A DNA stretch of 36,154 bases from Polyangiaceae bacterium (GTDB lineage: Bacteria > Myxococcota_A > Polyangia > Nannocystales > Nannocystaceae): contig JALSIN010000471.1 in the NCBI GenBank assembly GCA_026989935.1, positions 1 through 36,154 of the forward strand, written 5' to 3'. Within the stretch, counting starts at the first letter, position 1, and each line of letters opens with the position of its first letter. Shown one piece after another: positions 26,482-34,371 of this stretch. The notes beneath the pieces are model-generated. The model did no database searches and had not been told where the DNA came from. It saw only the letters and a program-made list of their open reading frames with translations. The position numbers were made by a program, and so were the translations under genes.

Positions 26482-27664
<1,183 letters not shown>

Positions 27665-27666
<2 letters not shown>

Positions 27667-27670
27667 GAGG
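27665..27670 (+). promoter_or_regulatory. Strong ribosome binding site for mreC
   Basis: AGGAGG overlaps the mreB stop codon and lies six bases before the GTG at 27677, supporting that start. Confidence 0.7.
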
Positions 27671-27676
27671 GGCGCC

Positions 27677-28561
27677 GTGGCTGCGTCCTGGCGATCCGCG
27701 AAAGACGCCGCCATCGTGGCCGGCTTGTTGCTGATCCCGGTGGCCTTGCTCGTGTCCTTCGTGCGCGGACCCGAGCGGCTCGGCCCGTTCGACCGTGCCG
27801 TGCGCCGGATCGTCGTGCCCCTCGAAGCGGGGGTGTCCTATGCCACCCGGATGGTGGGGGCGTTCTTCGAGCGCTGGATCCTGCAGGCGCGGTTGCAGGA
27901 AGAAAACGCCGTGCTACGCGGGCAGGTGCGGGACCTCGAGCGCATGGTGCGACGGCTCCGATCCCTGGCCGACGAGAACGAGGAGCTTCGCCGTGCGTTG
28001 CAGATGCGGGAGAAGGCCGCGGACGACCTGCTCGTGGCCGAGCGGGTGGGGGTGGAGCAGTCCCCGCACTTTCGTGTGATCGGCGTGCGCATCGACCGCG
28101 GCCGGGGCCAGGTTCGGCCCGACATGCCCGTCATCGCCCCGGACGGGGTCGTCGGGCGCATCGACCGCACCTACGACGACTACAGCGAGGTCATGCTGAT
28201 CACCGACCCCCGCAGCCGCGTCGCGGTGGAACTGCCCCGGACGCGGGCCCAGGGGATCCTCGTCGGCGCGGGCGAGGACCTGTGCGAGGTGGAAGTACCC
28301 GAGGAGTTCGACGTGCGCGCGGGGGATCTGGTGCAGACCAGCGGCGTGGACGACATCTTTCCGAAGGGGCAGCCCATCGGGGCGGTTCGCTCCATCGAGG
28401 CGCGGCCCGACGGGACGAAGCGACTCATGGTGACACCGTTCGTCGCGTTCGACCGGTTGTTCGTGATGTGGGTGGTGCTCGCCCCGGCGCCCCGCCCGGA
28501 TCCGAAGGCCGAGCGGCCCCCACAGATCCCGCCGGCCAGCGGCCTCGCCCCGGCGCGCTAG
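27677..28561 (+). CDS. mreC: Rod shape-determining protein MreC
   Basis: This 294-residue bitopic membrane protein has an N-terminal helix (about 15-33), a coiled coil (about 65-115; QARLQEENAVLRGQVRDLER) and the periplasmic double beta-barrel domain with VIAPDGVVGRID, LITDPRSRVAVELP and GDLVQTSGVDDIFPKGQPIG. MreC activates PBP2 and links the cytoskeleton to the cell-wall enzymes. The GTG start is preceded by AGGAGG. A Pro-rich tail ends the chain. The gap to mreD is 16 bases. Confidence 0.94.
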   Translation: MAASWRSAKDAAIVAGLLLIPVALLVSFVRGPERLGPFDRAVRRIVVPLEAGVSYATRMVGAFFERWILQARLQEENAVLRGQVRDLERMVRRLRSLADENEELRRALQMREKAADDLLVAERVGVEQSPHFRVIGVRIDRGRGQVRPDMPVIAPDGVVGRIDRTYDDYSEVMLITDPRSRVAVELPRTRAQGILVGAGEDLCEVEVPEEFDVRAGDLVQTSGVDDIFPKGQPIGAVRSIEARPDGTKRLMVTPFVAFDRLFVMWVVLAPAPRPDPKAERPPQIPPASGLAPAR

Positions 28562-28577
28562 GATCGCAACCGAAACC

Positions 28578-29123
28578 ATGGTCCGTCTCGCCACGTTCGT
28601 CGTGCTGTTGCTCGCCGGCATCGCCGTTGCCGGTGGGCTGGCCGATGCCCTGCACGGGACGGTCTTCGTCCCCGCGGCCCCGGCGATCCTGACGGTGCAC
28701 CTGGCGTGGTCGGGGGTCACCCTGCCGATGGGAGTGGGCCTGGCGATCCTGGCAGGGTACCTACAAGATCTCGACAGTGGTGGCGTGATCGGTCTTTCGG
28801 CGCTCGCCTACGGCCTCGCCTTCGTGGGATTGCACCGGATCGCCCGCCGGATCAGCGCCCCGGGCGCGGTCGGTCGCGCGCTGTGGAGCGGTCTTTGGAC
28901 CTTGCTCGTGGATGTATGGGTCGCGGTCGGCCTCTACGTCCTGCTTCCCTGGGTGCGCCTTGCCCACCTCGCGGAGCGCTCGGTCTGGCAGGGGGTGTTC
29001 TGGCACGTGGCGGCGACGGCGCTGTGGGCGCCGGCCGTGTGGTTGGCGGCCGATCGGATCTACGCGCGGGTGGGACTTTTTCGCCGGGGGTTGGCCGTCG
29101 AAGGCGGAGGGGCGCGGCGATGA
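28578..29123 (+). CDS. mreD: Rod shape-determining membrane protein MreD
   Basis: This 181-residue integral membrane protein has about five hydrophobic segments and no large soluble domain. The segment GVGLAILAGYLQDLDSGGVIGLSALAYGL corresponds to the conserved MreD core around its acidic residue and glycine pair. It sits between mreC and mrdA, as in most rod-shaped bacteria. The stop overlaps the mrdA start as ATGA. Confidence 0.9.
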   Translation: MVRLATFVVLLLAGIAVAGGLADALHGTVFVPAAPAILTVHLAWSGVTLPMGVGLAILAGYLQDLDSGGVIGLSALAYGLAFVGLHRIARRISAPGAVGRALWSGLWTLLVDVWVAVGLYVLLPWVRLAHLAERSVWQGVFWHVAATALWAPAVWLAADRIYARVGLFRRGLAVEGGGARR

Positions 29124-31111
29124 TCGATCTGCGGGCCGCCGACGACCCGCGACTGCTACGCCCTCGCCTGCAGGTGATGGCGGGCGTCGCCCTGTTGGTG
29201 TTTGCGGCACTGCTCGGGCGCCTTTGTCAGCTCCAGATCCTCGAAGGCGCCCACTACGCGCGGCGGGCGGAGCAGAACTTCGTGGACGTCGTGCCCGTGG
29301 ATGCGCCGCGCGGCCGCATCTTCGCCTCGGGGGGCGAGCCCCTGGCGACGAACCGGCCCACGTACAGCCTGCACGTCACGGCGTGGGTGCGCCGACCGGC
29401 TGATCCCGGACGCGGCGCCGAGGCGACGGTGACCCGGCGAGAACCCATGCCGGATGGGGTTCTCGACACGCTCGCGAGCCTCCTCGACTTCGCCGACGAC
29501 GAGGACCGGCGCAGGTTCCTGGAGAAGGTGCGGGCGCTGGTGGCCGACGAGGCGAGGGGGCGGTACGCCACGCGCGTTCGCAACAATCTGTCGTGGGAGG
29601 AAAACGCCCGCATCCAGGCGCGCCTCGACGATCTCGCGCCCTGGGTCGATGTGCGCGCGTCGGACCGCCGTTTCTATCCGGTGGGGGAGGTGGCGGCCTT
29701 CGTCACGGGCCACATGGGCAACGTGTCCTCCGAACGCCTTCGTCGCCAGGACGGTACCGGCTACCGGCCGGGGGATCGCGTCGGGCACACCGGCATCGAG
29801 CGCCAGTGGGAGAACTACCTGCGGGGTCGCCCCGGGGCGCGCCCCCGCGTGGTGGACGTGCGCAACCGGGAGGTCGAGGATCCACCGAAGGCCGCCGTGG
29901 CGTCCCTGCCGCCCTACCGGGATCCGATCCCGGGGCAGGACATCCACCTGACGCTCGAACTCGACCTGCAACAGGCGGCCTTCGACGCCTTCGAGGGGGT
30001 GCTCGCGGGTGGGCTCGTCGCGATGGACGTGCGCACCGGCGCCATCTTGGCGATGGTGTCCGTGCCTGCCATCGACCCGAACCTCTACGAGCAGCCGATC
30101 CCGCGTGCGCAGTGGGAGGCGTGGACGAAAAGCCCGCTCAAGCCGTTCATCGACAAAACGGTGCAGGAGCACTTCTTCCCCGGTTCGACCTACAAGGTGG
30201 TTTCGGCGCTGACGGCCCTGCAAGACCCGCATTTCGATCCGGAGCGGGAGATCGAATGCGAAGGTTCCGTGCTGTATGGCGGGCGGCGGTTCCGCGACAC
30301 CCACGCCCACGGGCCGATGAACCTGGAGCAGGCCATCGTCCAGTCGTGCAACGTCTACTTTTATACACTTGCCATCGAAGAGATCCTGACGTTGGAACGG
30401 ATGGCGAAGGTGGCGCGTGCCTTCGGGCTCGGGGAGCGGACGGGGCTCGGTCTCAACGGTGAGGTTCGGGGGCGGATCCCCACCGAGGCATTCGAGGCGC
30501 GCACCGGCACCTACCAGCGCGGCGTGCAGCTCAACAGCGCCATCGGCCAGGGCAACGTCAAGTCCACCGTGCTACAGATCGCCGTCTTGTACGCGGCCGT
30601 GGCGAACGGCGGTACCGTGTGGACGCCGTACATCGTGGACCGGATCACGACCCACGACGGGCGTCTGGTCTTCGAGACCGAGCCGCTCGCCAAGCCCCGG
30701 CCCCCCGTGGACCCGGAGGATCTCGCGCGCGTGCGCCGGGGGCTCTACGGGGTCGTCAACGACGAGCGAGGCACCGCCTACTCGGAGCGGCCCCGGGGGA
30801 TCGAGGTGGCCGGCAAGACGGGCACGGCACAGGTGGGGCGCGAGGAGCAGAAGGAGGGCGATGCGGCGATTCCGGGCTGGGAGCCCACGAAGGACCACGC
30901 CTGGTTTGCCGCCTACGCCCCGGCGGAAGACCCGCAGATCGTCGTGGTCGCGCTCGTCGAACACGGTGGCGTGGGGGCCGATGCGGCCGCACCCATCGTC
31001 ATGCGCGTCCTGGAGCATCGCCTCGGCGCCGTCGCGGCCACCGGTACGTCGCGGCCCGCGGGCGTCCCGCCGCCGCTGCCCGGAACGCGCACACCGCGAG
31101 GAGGTTCGTGA
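29120..31111 (+). CDS. mrdA: Penicillin-binding protein 2 (elongasome transpeptidase)
   Basis: This 663-residue class B PBP crosslinks peptidoglycan during elongation. One N-terminal transmembrane helix (about 18-38) is followed by the dimerisation/pedestal domain (DAPRGRIFASGGEPLATNRP; VGHTGIERQWENYLRG). The transpeptidase domain has intact catalytic boxes: Ser-x-x-Lys in PGSTYKV (Ser356, Lys359), SCN (409-411) and KTG (566-568, AGKTGTAQVG). The length matches PBP2. The start lies in an ATGA overlap with mreD; the frame is open further upstream but only within mreD. The stop and the rodA start share one base (TGATG). Confidence 0.96.
   Translation: MIDLRAADDPRLLRPRLQVMAGVALLVFAALLGRLCQLQILEGAHYARRAEQNFVDVVPVDAPRGRIFASGGEPLATNRPTYSLHVTAWVRRPADPGRGAEATVTRREPMPDGVLDTLASLLDFADDEDRRRFLEKVRALVADEARGRYATRVRNNLSWEENARIQARLDDLAPWVDVRASDRRFYPVGEVAAFVTGHMGNVSSERLRRQDGTGYRPGDRVGHTGIERQWENYLRGRPGARPRVVDVRNREVEDPPKAAVASLPPYRDPIPGQDIHLTLELDLQQAAFDAFEGVLAGGLVAMDVRTGAILAMVSVPAIDPNLYEQPIPRAQWEAWTKSPLKPFIDKTVQEHFFPGSTYKVVSALTALQDPHFDPEREIECEGSVLYGGRRFRDTHAHGPMNLEQAIVQSCNVYFYTLAIEEILTLERMAKVARAFGLGERTGLGLNGEVRGRIPTEAFEARTGTYQRGVQLNSAIGQGNVKSTVLQIAVLYAAVANGGTVWTPYIVDRITTHDGRLVFETEPLAKPRPPVDPEDLARVRRGLYGVVNDERGTAYSERPRGIEVAGKTGTAQVGREEQKEGDAAIPGWEPTKDHAWFAAYAPAEDPQIVVVALVEHGGVGADAAAPIVMRVLEHRLGAVAATGTSRPAGVPPPLPGTRTPRGGS
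31099..31104 (+). promoter_or_regulatory. Ribosome binding site for rodA
   Basis: AGGAGG lies within the last codons of mrdA, six bases before the ATG at 31111, supporting that start. Confidence 0.65.
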
Positions 31112-32235
31112 TGCCCCTCGGTTCCACCCTCGGTCCACCGAACAGCCGTCTCCTGCGCGCCCTGCGGAGCATCGACTGGGTGATCGTGGTGATCACGGCA
31201 TCGCTCCTGGTGCTCGCCTTCATCAACCTCAACAGCGCTGCGCCGGCCCCGTTCTCGTCACGGATCGTCACGCAGCTCGTCTGGTGCGGGGTCGGGACCG
31301 TCGCGATGTTCCTGGTGTCGGCGATCGACCCGCGCACGCTCTACGCCGTCGCGTTCCCCGCGTACGGGGCCGGGATCTTCATGCTCGTGCTGGTGGCCTT
31401 GCTCGGGTACACGGCCAAGGGGGCGGGGCGGTGGCTGGTCGTCGGCTCGACGCGATTCCAGCCGTCGGAGATCATGAAGGTGCTGCTCATCCTGGCGCTC
31501 GCGCGCTACCTGCACGGCCTGCCGAGGCACCGGCACAGGCCGTGGCGCAACCTGCTGCAGGCGCTTGCGATGGTGGCCGCACCCGTCGTGCTCATCGTGC
31601 GGCAGCCGGACCTCGGCACCGGCATCTTCCTGGCCCTGGTTGCGCTTTCGATGCTGGCCGTGACCGAGCTGCGTCTCAAGAGCCTGCTGGCCGTGGGATC
31701 GAGCGGCATCGTGGCCCTGGCGCTGATGTGGCGCTACGGGATGCTCGACTACCAGCGCCTGCGCATCGACGTGTGGCTCGATCCCGAGCTGTACGCCGAC
31801 GACGAGGGCTACCAGACGATCCAGGCGATGATCGGCGTGGGCAACGGCGGGTTCTTCGGCCGCGGGGTGGGGGAGGGTACGCAGAACGTGTTGCGCTTTC
31901 TGCCCGAGCGGTTGACGGACTTCCCCTTCGCCATCTTCGCGGAGGAATGGGGCTTTTTGGGGTGCGCCATGGTGCTTTTGCTCTACGCGAGCCTCGTGCT
32001 GTGGTCGTTGCACCTCGCGGCTCGTGCCCGCGACCGTTTCAGCGCCCTGGTCGCCGTGGGGGTCGGGGCCCTGTTCTTCTGGCACGTGGTCATCAACGTG
32101 GGGATGGTCCTGCAGCTGTTCCCCGTCGTCGGGATCACCCTGCCGTTCTTCAGCCTCGGGGGCAGCAACCTCCTGAGCATGATGGTGGCGCTCGGGCTCC
32201 TGCAGAGTGTGTCGCGGTCGCGGATGCCCGGATAG
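31111..32235 (+). CDS. rodA: SEDS glycosyltransferase RodA
   Basis: This 374-residue SEDS-family protein polymerises glycan strands from lipid II together with PBP2. It has about ten transmembrane helices and the family landmarks GAGRWLVVGSTRFQPSEIMK, RQPDLGTGIF, GVGNGGFFGRGVGEGTQN and LPERLTDFPFAIFAEEWG. The essential acidic residue of SEDS proteins corresponds to Asp270 in the TDF motif. The C-terminal PVVGITLPFFSLGGSNLLSMM motif is also typical. Its position directly after mrdA makes RodA rather than FtsW the right call. It is the last gene of the operon. Confidence 0.96.
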   Translation: MPLGSTLGPPNSRLLRALRSIDWVIVVITASLLVLAFINLNSAAPAPFSSRIVTQLVWCGVGTVAMFLVSAIDPRTLYAVAFPAYGAGIFMLVLVALLGYTAKGAGRWLVVGSTRFQPSEIMKVLLILALARYLHGLPRHRHRPWRNLLQALAMVAAPVVLIVRQPDLGTGIFLALVALSMLAVTELRLKSLLAVGSSGIVALALMWRYGMLDYQRLRIDVWLDPELYADDEGYQTIQAMIGVGNGGFFGRGVGEGTQNVLRFLPERLTDFPFAIFAEEWGFLGCAMVLLLYASLVLWSLHLAARARDRFSALVAVGVGALFFWHVVINVGMVLQLFPVVGITLPFFSLGGSNLLSMMVALGLLQSVSRSRMPG

Positions 32236-32365
32236 GTGGCGCGGGCACCCGAGAGCGGGGCGCGGGACGAGGGGCGGCCGTCCGGCCGGTCGGGTTGTCG
32301 GTTCGTTGGCTTCGTGGGGTGAATTACGGTTCTTTGGGGCGAGGATCTTGCGACCCTCGGCGTGC

Positions 32366-32394
32366 TTGACAGGTCCTGGTGTCGGCGGGATCGT
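32366..32394 (+). promoter_or_regulatory. Candidate promoter with perfect -35 box
   Basis: TTGACA at 32366-32371 is a perfect -35. A 17-base spacer leads to GATCGT at 32389-32394, a weak -10 (three of six matches). A leader of about 25 bases would precede the ATG at 32425. The quality of the -35 is unusual for this GC-rich DNA. Confidence 0.35.
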
Positions 32395-32424
32395 CCGGCG
32401 GCTTTCCAACCGGGAGATTTCCGT

Positions 32425-33807
32425 ATGACTCGCATCCGATTCCTTTCGCCGATCCTCATGGCACCCGTTGCCGTGGCCGTGCTCGTGGCTCCTGCGGACG
32501 CCGCGGCGTCCTCGTCTGCGGCCGACTGGGTTCAGGCCGTCCCCGAGCCTCCGCTGCCCGCCGAGAGCTATGATCCGCGCCCCGGCGTGTTGTTCGTGCC
32601 CTTCGAGGACGTCACCGTCCAGCCGCCGCCGTGTGCGGACGGCACCACCCAGTCCAACTCGGCGAAGAACTGCACCGGGGTGGTCTCGGCCGAGACGACG
32701 ATTCCCGCCTGGGGGGACGCCACCGCCCAACAGGACCTCATGACCGGGCTGCAAAACGCTCTGGCGCCCTACAACGTCCGGATCACGAACGAGCGCCCCG
32801 ACGACTACGTGCCGTACCACATGCTCCTGATGACGGACATGGACGACATGGAGGCCATGAGCGAGGTGTGTGCGCTCGCGCCCCTCGGCTGCGACGGCCT
32901 GCCCCGCAACAAAACGGCCATCGTGCTCGGTTCCACGATGAACTGCATGGAGCGCGATCCCCTGGCGGCGGCGCTGTTCGCCTTCGGCCGTCTTTCGGGA
33001 CTCGAGCCGTTGGTGGACGTTCCCGACGATCCCATGACGGTGCCGCAGGACACGATGAATCCTCCCACGATGTACCAGGACATGTGCAACATGCTGGCGG
33101 ATCCGGGGAACCTCCAGTGCCTGTCGTCGATCCACAAGCTGTACTGCAACGACATGGACGGGGTGCAAAACTCCCACCAGGAGTTGCTGGGGGTGTACGG
33201 GCCGGCGCCCGCCGAGCCGGACACGACGCCGCCGACGATCGATTCGATCTTCCCGGAGGACGGGGCCACCTTCTCGACCTCCGATTCGTGGACGGTCAGC
33301 GCCACGGCGAGCGACGACTCGGGGTACGTGGTGGCCCGCTGGGACTGGGTGGATGGGATCCCCGATCCCATCGCCGACTCCTGGTTCTGCAAGGCCACGA
33401 ACCGCGCGTGCCCGCAGGAGTTCATGAACTCGCATGGAGCGGATCCGTCGCTTCCGTGGGATTTCTTCTCGGCGACCGATGGCGCGCCGGCCGGGACGTA
33501 CAAGTTCCGGTTCACGGTGCAGGACATGGCCGGCAACACGGCCACGCAGGAGATCACGGTCACCGTGGAGCCGTCGGGTGGCGGCTCGGCCACCGGCGGC
33601 GGCTCGACCTCGGGTGGCCCGACGACCGCCGGCACCACGACCTCGGGGGGCGGTGACACGACCGGCGGCATCGAGTCCGGGGGCAACATGATGGACGGGA
33701 ACAACTCCGGCGGGTGTAGCTGCCGTACCCCCGCCCGCCCGGTCGATGCGGTCTTCGGTCTCGGGGCGCTCGTGCTGGGCGGCCTCGTGCGCCGGCGCTG
33801 GCGCTGA
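32425..33807 (+). CDS. MYXO-CTERM surface protein, inactivated metzincin-like fold
   Basis: This 460-residue protein has a signal peptide (cleavage near ADA, 26). Residues 50-260 follow the layout of myxobacterial metzincin-like secreted proteases: an N-terminal strand (PGVLFVPFEDVTV), a middle APYNVRIT segment, then a zinc-helix position reading FAFGRLSGLEP (185-195) and a Met-turn-like DTMNPP (209-214). Compared with an HExxHxxGxxH helix, the two N-terminal His/Glu positions are Phe185 and Ala186, the second His is Arg189 and the third is Pro195, so catalysis should be lost. An Ig-like domain (about 268-382), a Gly/Thr/Ser linker and a MYXO-CTERM tail follow (Cys431-Ser-Cys433, hydrophobic helix, RRRWR), which should be processed by a myxosortase and displayed on the cell surface. 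I chose the ATG at 32425 over an upstream frame start at 32362 because the signal peptide begins there and a purine-rich GGGAGA lies nearby. Confidence 0.82.
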   Translation: MTRIRFLSPILMAPVAVAVLVAPADAAASSSAADWVQAVPEPPLPAESYDPRPGVLFVPFEDVTVQPPPCADGTTQSNSAKNCTGVVSAETTIPAWGDATAQQDLMTGLQNALAPYNVRITNERPDDYVPYHMLLMTDMDDMEAMSEVCALAPLGCDGLPRNKTAIVLGSTMNCMERDPLAAALFAFGRLSGLEPLVDVPDDPMTVPQDTMNPPTMYQDMCNMLADPGNLQCLSSIHKLYCNDMDGVQNSHQELLGVYGPAPAEPDTTPPTIDSIFPEDGATFSTSDSWTVSATASDDSGYVVARWDWVDGIPDPIADSWFCKATNRACPQEFMNSHGADPSLPWDFFSATDGAPAGTYKFRFTVQDMAGNTATQEITVTVEPSGGGSATGGGSTSGGPTTAGTTTSGGGDTTGGIESGGNMMDGNNSGGCSCRTPARPVDAVFGLGALVLGGLVRRRWR

Positions 33808-33855: not shown

Positions 33856-33892
33856 GACCGCGGGTTCCCCTGGTGGGGACCCGCGGTCTTTT
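33856..33892 (+). terminator. Intrinsic terminator
   Basis: A 14-base-pair stem (GACCGCGGGTTCCCC against GGGGACCCGCGGTC, with one bulged T), a TGGT loop and a TTTT tract form a classic rho-independent terminator for the MYXO-CTERM gene. The T-tract overlaps the TAA stop codon of the convergent DUF2062 gene. Confidence 0.9.
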
Positions 33893-34358
33893 ATGCACGC
33901 GGCGCGGCGTCCGGCGGGTCGAACCCGAGGCGCCGGCGCCCGACGACGACCAAAAGCCACGTAAGGGCGAACGCGACCGGGGCCGCGAGCATGACCACGA
34001 CCGCGGCGCCCAGCAGGAAGTCGGGCAGCGCCGTCTTGAACAGGGTCCACCAGCCGGCACCGTCCAGCGCGGCCACGGTTTGCCACGAGGGCGGCGCGTG
34101 CCCGCGAAGGCGCGTGCCGATCCAGTACTCGGCGAAGTAGAAGGCCGGCCCCGTCACGGGGTTGACGACGGCGGTCCCCAGATACGTTGCGGGGAGGTTC
34201 ACGCGCACGATGGGCGCAAGCGCGAGGGCGGCGGCCATCCCCGCGAACGGGACCGGGACCAGCGAAAGCGACAACCCCAGCGCGACCCCGCCCGCGATGC
34301 GCGGGGGGCTTGCGTGCTGGGCGAGGAGCGTGCGCATCCAGGGGCGCCGGCGCCGCAT
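33891..34358 (-). CDS. DUF2062 membrane protein
   Basis: This 155-residue integral membrane protein has about three hydrophobic segments. The pattern SPPRIAGGVALGLSLSLVPV, followed by NLPATYLGTAVVNPVTGPAFYFAEYWIG, matches DUF2062, a family of unknown function whose core has a Gly-rich helix and an NPxT loop. The frame is also open from a GTG at 34367, but that codon lies inside the TATCGT promoter-like hexamer, so I prefer the ATG at 34358. It is convergent with the MYXO-CTERM gene and divergent from the MATE gene. Confidence 0.8.
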   Translation of the reverse strand: MRRRRPWMRTLLAQHASPPRIAGGVALGLSLSLVPVPFAGMAAALALAPIVRVNLPATYLGTAVVNPVTGPAFYFAEYWIGTRLRGHAPPSWQTVAALDGAGWWTLFKTALPDFLLGAAVVVMLAAPVAFALTWLLVVVGRRRLGFDPPDAAPRA

Positions 34359-34365
34359 GTACGAC

Positions 34366-34371
34366 ACGATA
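34366..34371 (-). promoter_or_regulatory. Candidate -10 for the DUF2062 gene
   Basis: On the minus strand the hexamer TATCGT ends seven bases before the ATG at 34358, the same spacing as for the acyl-CoA dehydrogenase gene. It is preceded by GGC rather than TGn, so it is not extended. Confidence 0.35.

Follow-up and report, generated by a model that had tools for sequence, protein, structure and literature searches.

A putative non-catalytic relative of a QExxH metzincin-like family, predicted to be surface-anchored, downstream of rodA in Nannocystaceae

Introduction

Why would a bacterium keep, beside its cell-shape genes, a protease-like protein whose metal-site helix has lost all of its catalytic residues? 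The question is raised by one gene in a stretch of 36,154 nucleotides from a Polyangiaceae bacterium of the Nannocystaceae (contig JALSIN010000471.1), hereafter called the window. A sequence-only reading of this DNA had taken its product for a surface-anchored pseudo-metzincin with all zinc ligands replaced.

A protease-like architecture

The gene is an intact open reading frame of the forward strand that encodes a product of 460 residues. Its coordinates, as well as the motif FAFGRLSGLEP at residues 185-195, agreed exactly with the earlier reading when the DNA was read again. Behind a signal peptide come, in this order, a domain of some 220 residues, an Ig-like part, a linker rich in Gly and Thr, and a MYXO-CTERM signal. 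The features of the locus are the following.

26665..32235, forward: conserved neighbourhood mreB, mreC, mreD, PBP2 (mrdA) and rodA (Pfam, MreD below the cut-off; synteny)
32365..32412, forward: non-coding block ahead of the gene, conserved in the sister species, CTTGACAGGTC ... GGGATCGTCCGGCGGCTTTCCAACC (alignment)
32425..33807, forward: pseudo-metzincin-like MYXO-CTERM protein, 460 residues (open reading frame; 77% identical orthologue in the sister species; dN/dS 0.20)
32425..32508, forward: signal peptide, approximately residues 1-28 (sequence: MTRIR, hydrophobic stretch, ADAAAS)
32554..33210, forward: metzincin-like domain, residues 44-262 (alignments and hhalign)
32977..33009, forward: degenerate metal-site helix FAFGRLSGLEP, residues 185-195 (family alignment)
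33025..33039, forward: Met-turn equivalent DDPMT, residues 201-205 (M204 present in all clade members)
33226..33573, forward: Ig-like domain, residues 268-383 (Pfam Big_7, Big_13 and Big_9, each below the gathering cut-off; Ig domains are the best PDB matches)
33574..33708, forward: Gly/Thr/Ser-rich linker (sequence)
33706..33804, forward: MYXO-CTERM sorting signal, GGCSC, transmembrane helix and RRRWR (TIGR03901 score and sequence)
33891..34367, reverse: DUF2062 protein, conserved downstream neighbour (Pfam; synteny)

The Ig-like domain, the linker and the anchor announced by the earlier reading were all recovered. Searched alone against Pfam, NCBIfam and the PDB sequences, the protein revealed its Ig-like part and its anchor and nothing else. 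The TIGR03901 model scored 21.1 bits in the genome scan versus 15.8 bits in the whole-protein hmmscan (cut-off 20), and the signature cysteine, the transmembrane helix and the arginine cluster are directly visible as GGCSC...RRRWR; the host genome contains 23 MYXO-CTERM matches. In Myxococcus, a myxosortase directs such proteins to the surface (PMC11980579). By analogy with this work on Myxococcus xanthus, the protein would be exported by its signal peptide and then anchored at the surface through its MYXO-CTERM signal by a myxosortase.

The degenerate helix and its parent family

Does FAFGRLSGLEP resemble a metal-site helix by chance? The comparison by hhalign of the profile of the degenerate clade described below with that of its relatives bearing Gln or His at the first ligand position (the Q/H profile) gave a score of 211.9 (E 5.7e-33, 99.9%) over approximately 206 columns, with a maximum of 19.7 for 40 column-shuffled controls. 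These values indicate that the resemblance is not due to chance and that the protein is homologous, over its whole domain, to a QE/HExxHxxGxxH metzincin-like family. In the family alignment, the motif falls onto QExxHxxGLEH, residues 185, 186, 189 and 195 facing the Gln (or His), Glu, His and His of the relatives, so that neither the ligands of the catalytic HExxHxxGxxH motif nor the general-base Glu are found at this site. The scaffold is thus kept with all four site residues replaced, as the sequence-only reading had proposed. The whole protein has 4 His in total, and there is no HExxH elsewhere in the chain. The helix of the sister-species orthologue reads YAFGRLSGLEP, so that the degenerate motif is no sequencing error.

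Two details of the earlier reading had to be revised. The Met-turn is not DTMNPP, whose M211 is not conserved in the clade, but DDPMT, whose M204 is aligned with the Met of DIM or DLM in the relatives and occurs unchanged in all 13 members. Furthermore, the relatives do possess a homologous metal-site helix, but it is mostly QExxHxxGLEH and not HEFGHxLGLEH. The family was matched in 29 genomes among 59 relatives searched, mostly of the same bacterial family. Its 79 domain sequences comprise 58 of the QE..H..G..H type, 5 of the HE..H..G..H type and 16 degenerate ones. All 63 intact-site homologues have the Glu as well as the second and third His (first ligand Gln in 58, His in 5), and a 62-sequence alignment of this set shows the motif residues E, H, G, L and H to be invariant. 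The sequences therefore indicate that QExxH rather than HExxH characterises the family overall, and that Gln had probably taken the place of the first His before the parent line gave rise to the clade. We do not assume that the Gln-bearing members are dead, since VMP3 of Volvox, whose site is naturally QEXXHXXGXXH, is reported to be an active, copper-preferring protease (cited in PMC7717551).

The host genome itself contains approximately 10 paralogues in which the metal-site helix is complete or partial, and the best of these matches the protein with an E value of 3e-60. Of the active paralogues that the earlier reading had suggested looking for, intact-site proteins are present, as putative proteases. 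Eight of them (L002, L003, L004, L005, L006, L007, L010 and L014) have Gln at the first zinc-ligand position.

One degenerate clade, retained downstream of rodA

Thirteen proteins from 11 genomes lack the Gln/His, Glu, His and His together, and they form a single branch (SH-aLRT 99) in a tree from which the motif columns had been removed; this branch is nested in a larger set that also holds a Q clade. Across the 13 members, G188, G192, L193, E194 and M204 are invariant. The earlier question whether the inactive residues are conserved across orthologues has a positive answer for the loss (13/13) and a negative one for what replaced the ligands: the four positions carry Y/F/I, A (once V), R/Y/L/S and G/N/P. 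As these residues vary, nothing suggests that a replacement site arose at the four positions. Comparison with the sister species gave a dN/dS of 0.20 for the whole gene and of 0.19 for the helix and Met-turn, values which indicate that the gene is under purifying selection. The idea of a pseudoprotease deprived of every catalytic residue finds good support in this single clade, its dN/dS and its intact-site paralogues, except that the starting state was probably QExxH and not HExxH. Outside the clade, metal-site residues were lost independently in L024 (QGIAHNWGLEN), L063 (WAWGIGHGLEP) and L077 (KVAGHAWGLDM).

The clade gene lies downstream of rodA in all 11 holder genomes, which represent five genera; the spacing is several kb longer in G009, and two of the 11 carry a second clade member at another location. 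A DAGK-like gene stands between rodA and the clade gene in 9 of the 11; in genomes devoid of the pseudoprotease, it did not turn up near rodA. This putative lipid-kinase gene (L117:1310-2389 and homologues) is absent from that place in the genus of the window. In 17 other family genomes, the stretch analysed downstream of rodA (about 2 to 12 kb, the shortest in G007) contains no member of the protein family. The 11 holders form one group on the RodA tree (support 93/86), and a single gain at the rodA locus followed by retention would be the simplest history.

Within the 190 bp that separate rodA from the gene lies a block, starting with CTTGACAGGTC, that is almost identical in the sister species and exists as one copy in the host genome. 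Neither the block nor the region around the gene matched an Rfam family; the promoter scan did not flag the block and gave no sigma-70-like site, and terminator-like sites were predicted inside the gene only. The block is probably the gene's own promoter and leader, and because of this appearance we do not claim an operon with rodA.

Proposed role and alternatives

The model that we consider likely is that of a product without catalytic function that is anchored at the surface, acts by binding and derives from the QExxH metzincin-like family, itself expanded in this bacterial family. One ancestral copy of the QE/HExxHxxGxxH family would have come to lie downstream of rodA, lost its metal ligands and its general-base Glu, and been retained ever since for its binding function. 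A peptide, protein or glycan ligand would most likely be bound by the former cleft region, the Ig-like domain or both. Catalysis is predicted to be absent, and a role other than the cutting of proteins is probable, since the catalytic residues are lost and yet 11 related bacteria keep the gene beside cell-shape genes. Binding as the mode of action is suggested by this constraint in the absence of catalytic residues and by analogy with the pseudopeptidases of the ADAM family, described in PMC11266112 as working through protein-protein binding.

Could the dead copy regulate its own paralogues, by competing for substrate or by dimerising with the approximately 10 QExxH surface proteins of the same genome? 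The genome does provide intact-site paralogues of similar domain order, and pseudopeptidases are described as able to control their active cousins (PMC11266112). However, these paralogues are themselves only putative proteases, and the rodA locus offers no intact-site partner; we regard this regulation as unlikely.

The constant position behind rodA, seen in all 11 genomes and across five genera, could also designate a cell-envelope factor linked functionally to the MreBCD/PBP2/RodA elongasome, such as a sensor or scaffold at the surface co-ordinated with elongation. One inherited gain accounts for this position; furthermore, transcription probably starts from the gene's own conserved upstream block, the DAGK-like gene intervenes in most holders, and the predicted anchor would place the protein outside, away from the elongasome. 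Such a factor is in our opinion distinctly improbable. We are as sceptical of the wider proposal that a pseudoprotease inserted once beside mre, PBP2 and RodA now serves at the surface as a partner of wall elongation or of a QExxH protease system of the copper type.

Is the family metzincin-folded at all, or is the likeness of its QExxHxxGLEH helix and Met-turn a local convergence? The metzincin matches span mainly 33-48 residues, which speaks for convergence. Compared with the PDB, the Q/H profile matched karilysin, matrix metalloproteinases (MMPs), fragilysin and acutolysin, mainly over the helix and Met-turn, but the acutolysin alignment reaches approximately 75 residues. The comparison of the Q/H profile with that of myxobacterial matrixins gave a score of 60.9 over 33 columns, with shuffled controls at 18.6 or less. 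In addition, the spacing from the third His to the Met is matrixin-like, and L053, an HE member, exceeds the Pfam cut-offs of both Peptidase_M10 and Reprolysin_3. We give convergence little credence. The metzincin assignment of the protein itself is transitive, since the profile of its own clade matched no metzincin in the PDB or matrixin profile comparisons and it is the QE relatives that match. Structure prediction with two sequences only (window protein and L016 ectodomain; domain only) gave pLDDT values of 35.1 and 31.3. A metzincin fold is what the protein would be expected to share with the QE relatives.

An enzyme with a re-invented active site is very improbable. Twelve of the 13 clade members share S146, D209 and H251, positions at which the sister clade differs, and this new conservation leaves slight room for a novel reactive site in another part of the domain. 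However, the proximity of the three residues is conjectural, Ser, Asp and His are frequently conserved for structural reasons, and we know of no precedent for such a site. Finally, the lost catalytic residues might have announced a decaying pseudogene, a reading that we reject in view of the dN/dS, the intact frame, the retained secretion and anchor signals and the synteny in 11 of 11 genomes.

Comparison with known systems

The QE/HExxHxxGxxH MYXO-CTERM paralogues, for which we found no family name, share with the protein the domain of about 220 residues, the Ig-like domain, the linker and the anchor, as well as the conserved Cys, the QNSxxELL motif and the Met of the Met-turn; they differ in keeping the Q/H, E, H and H that the clade has lost. 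An inactivated metalloprotease anchored by MYXO-CTERM is already a recognised kind: NF041938 of NCBIfam (RSIGE_not_HEIGH) has likewise lost its HEIGH motif. The window clade is nevertheless indicated to be a different family, the protein giving no match to NF041938 at E values up to 10 (cut-off 375 bits); nor did any genome of its bacterial family. Some relatives matched NF041905 (MXAN_2677/MXAN_2678 myxosortase-dependent metalloprotease) weakly over the helix and Met-turn, far below the cut-off, and the protein itself did not match. The sole match of the viral-contig scan, L086, is a short, unrelated HEFGH protein.

The ADAM pseudopeptidases (ADAM2, 11, 18, 22, 23 and 32; UNC-71) are likewise surface relatives of metzincins without zinc ligands, and are described as binding proteins (PMC11266112). 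Unlike the window protein, they are eukaryotic and carry disintegrin and Cys-rich domains, the comparison being one of lost ligands and binding rather than of close sequence relation. VMP3 resembles the 58 of 63 intact relatives by its Gln as first ligand, a likeness of motif alone; it is reported active (PMC7717551), whereas the window protein has no ligands.

Bacterial pseudometalloproteases appear to be little studied, and a review of inactive metallopeptidases seems to deal mainly with ADAMs and other eukaryotic proteins (PMC11266112). The present family offers a clean natural case, with approximately 10 intact-site paralogues and one dead clade within one genome, a fixed locus and a single origin. 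The parent family is itself unusual, since 58 of its 63 intact members carry Gln in place of the first His, like the reportedly copper-preferring VMP3, and the combination of this site with a dead clade makes metal choice and the loss of catalysis directly testable. The Gln-site family may be of greater interest than the pseudoprotease. Within it, L053 (HEIGHNFGLEH) lies inside a Q clade as sister to L024, and the tandem paralogues L004 and L005 (G000:C228), both with the motif QEVAHSYGLEH, have near-identical metzincin-like domains, which suggests a recent duplication or gene conversion.
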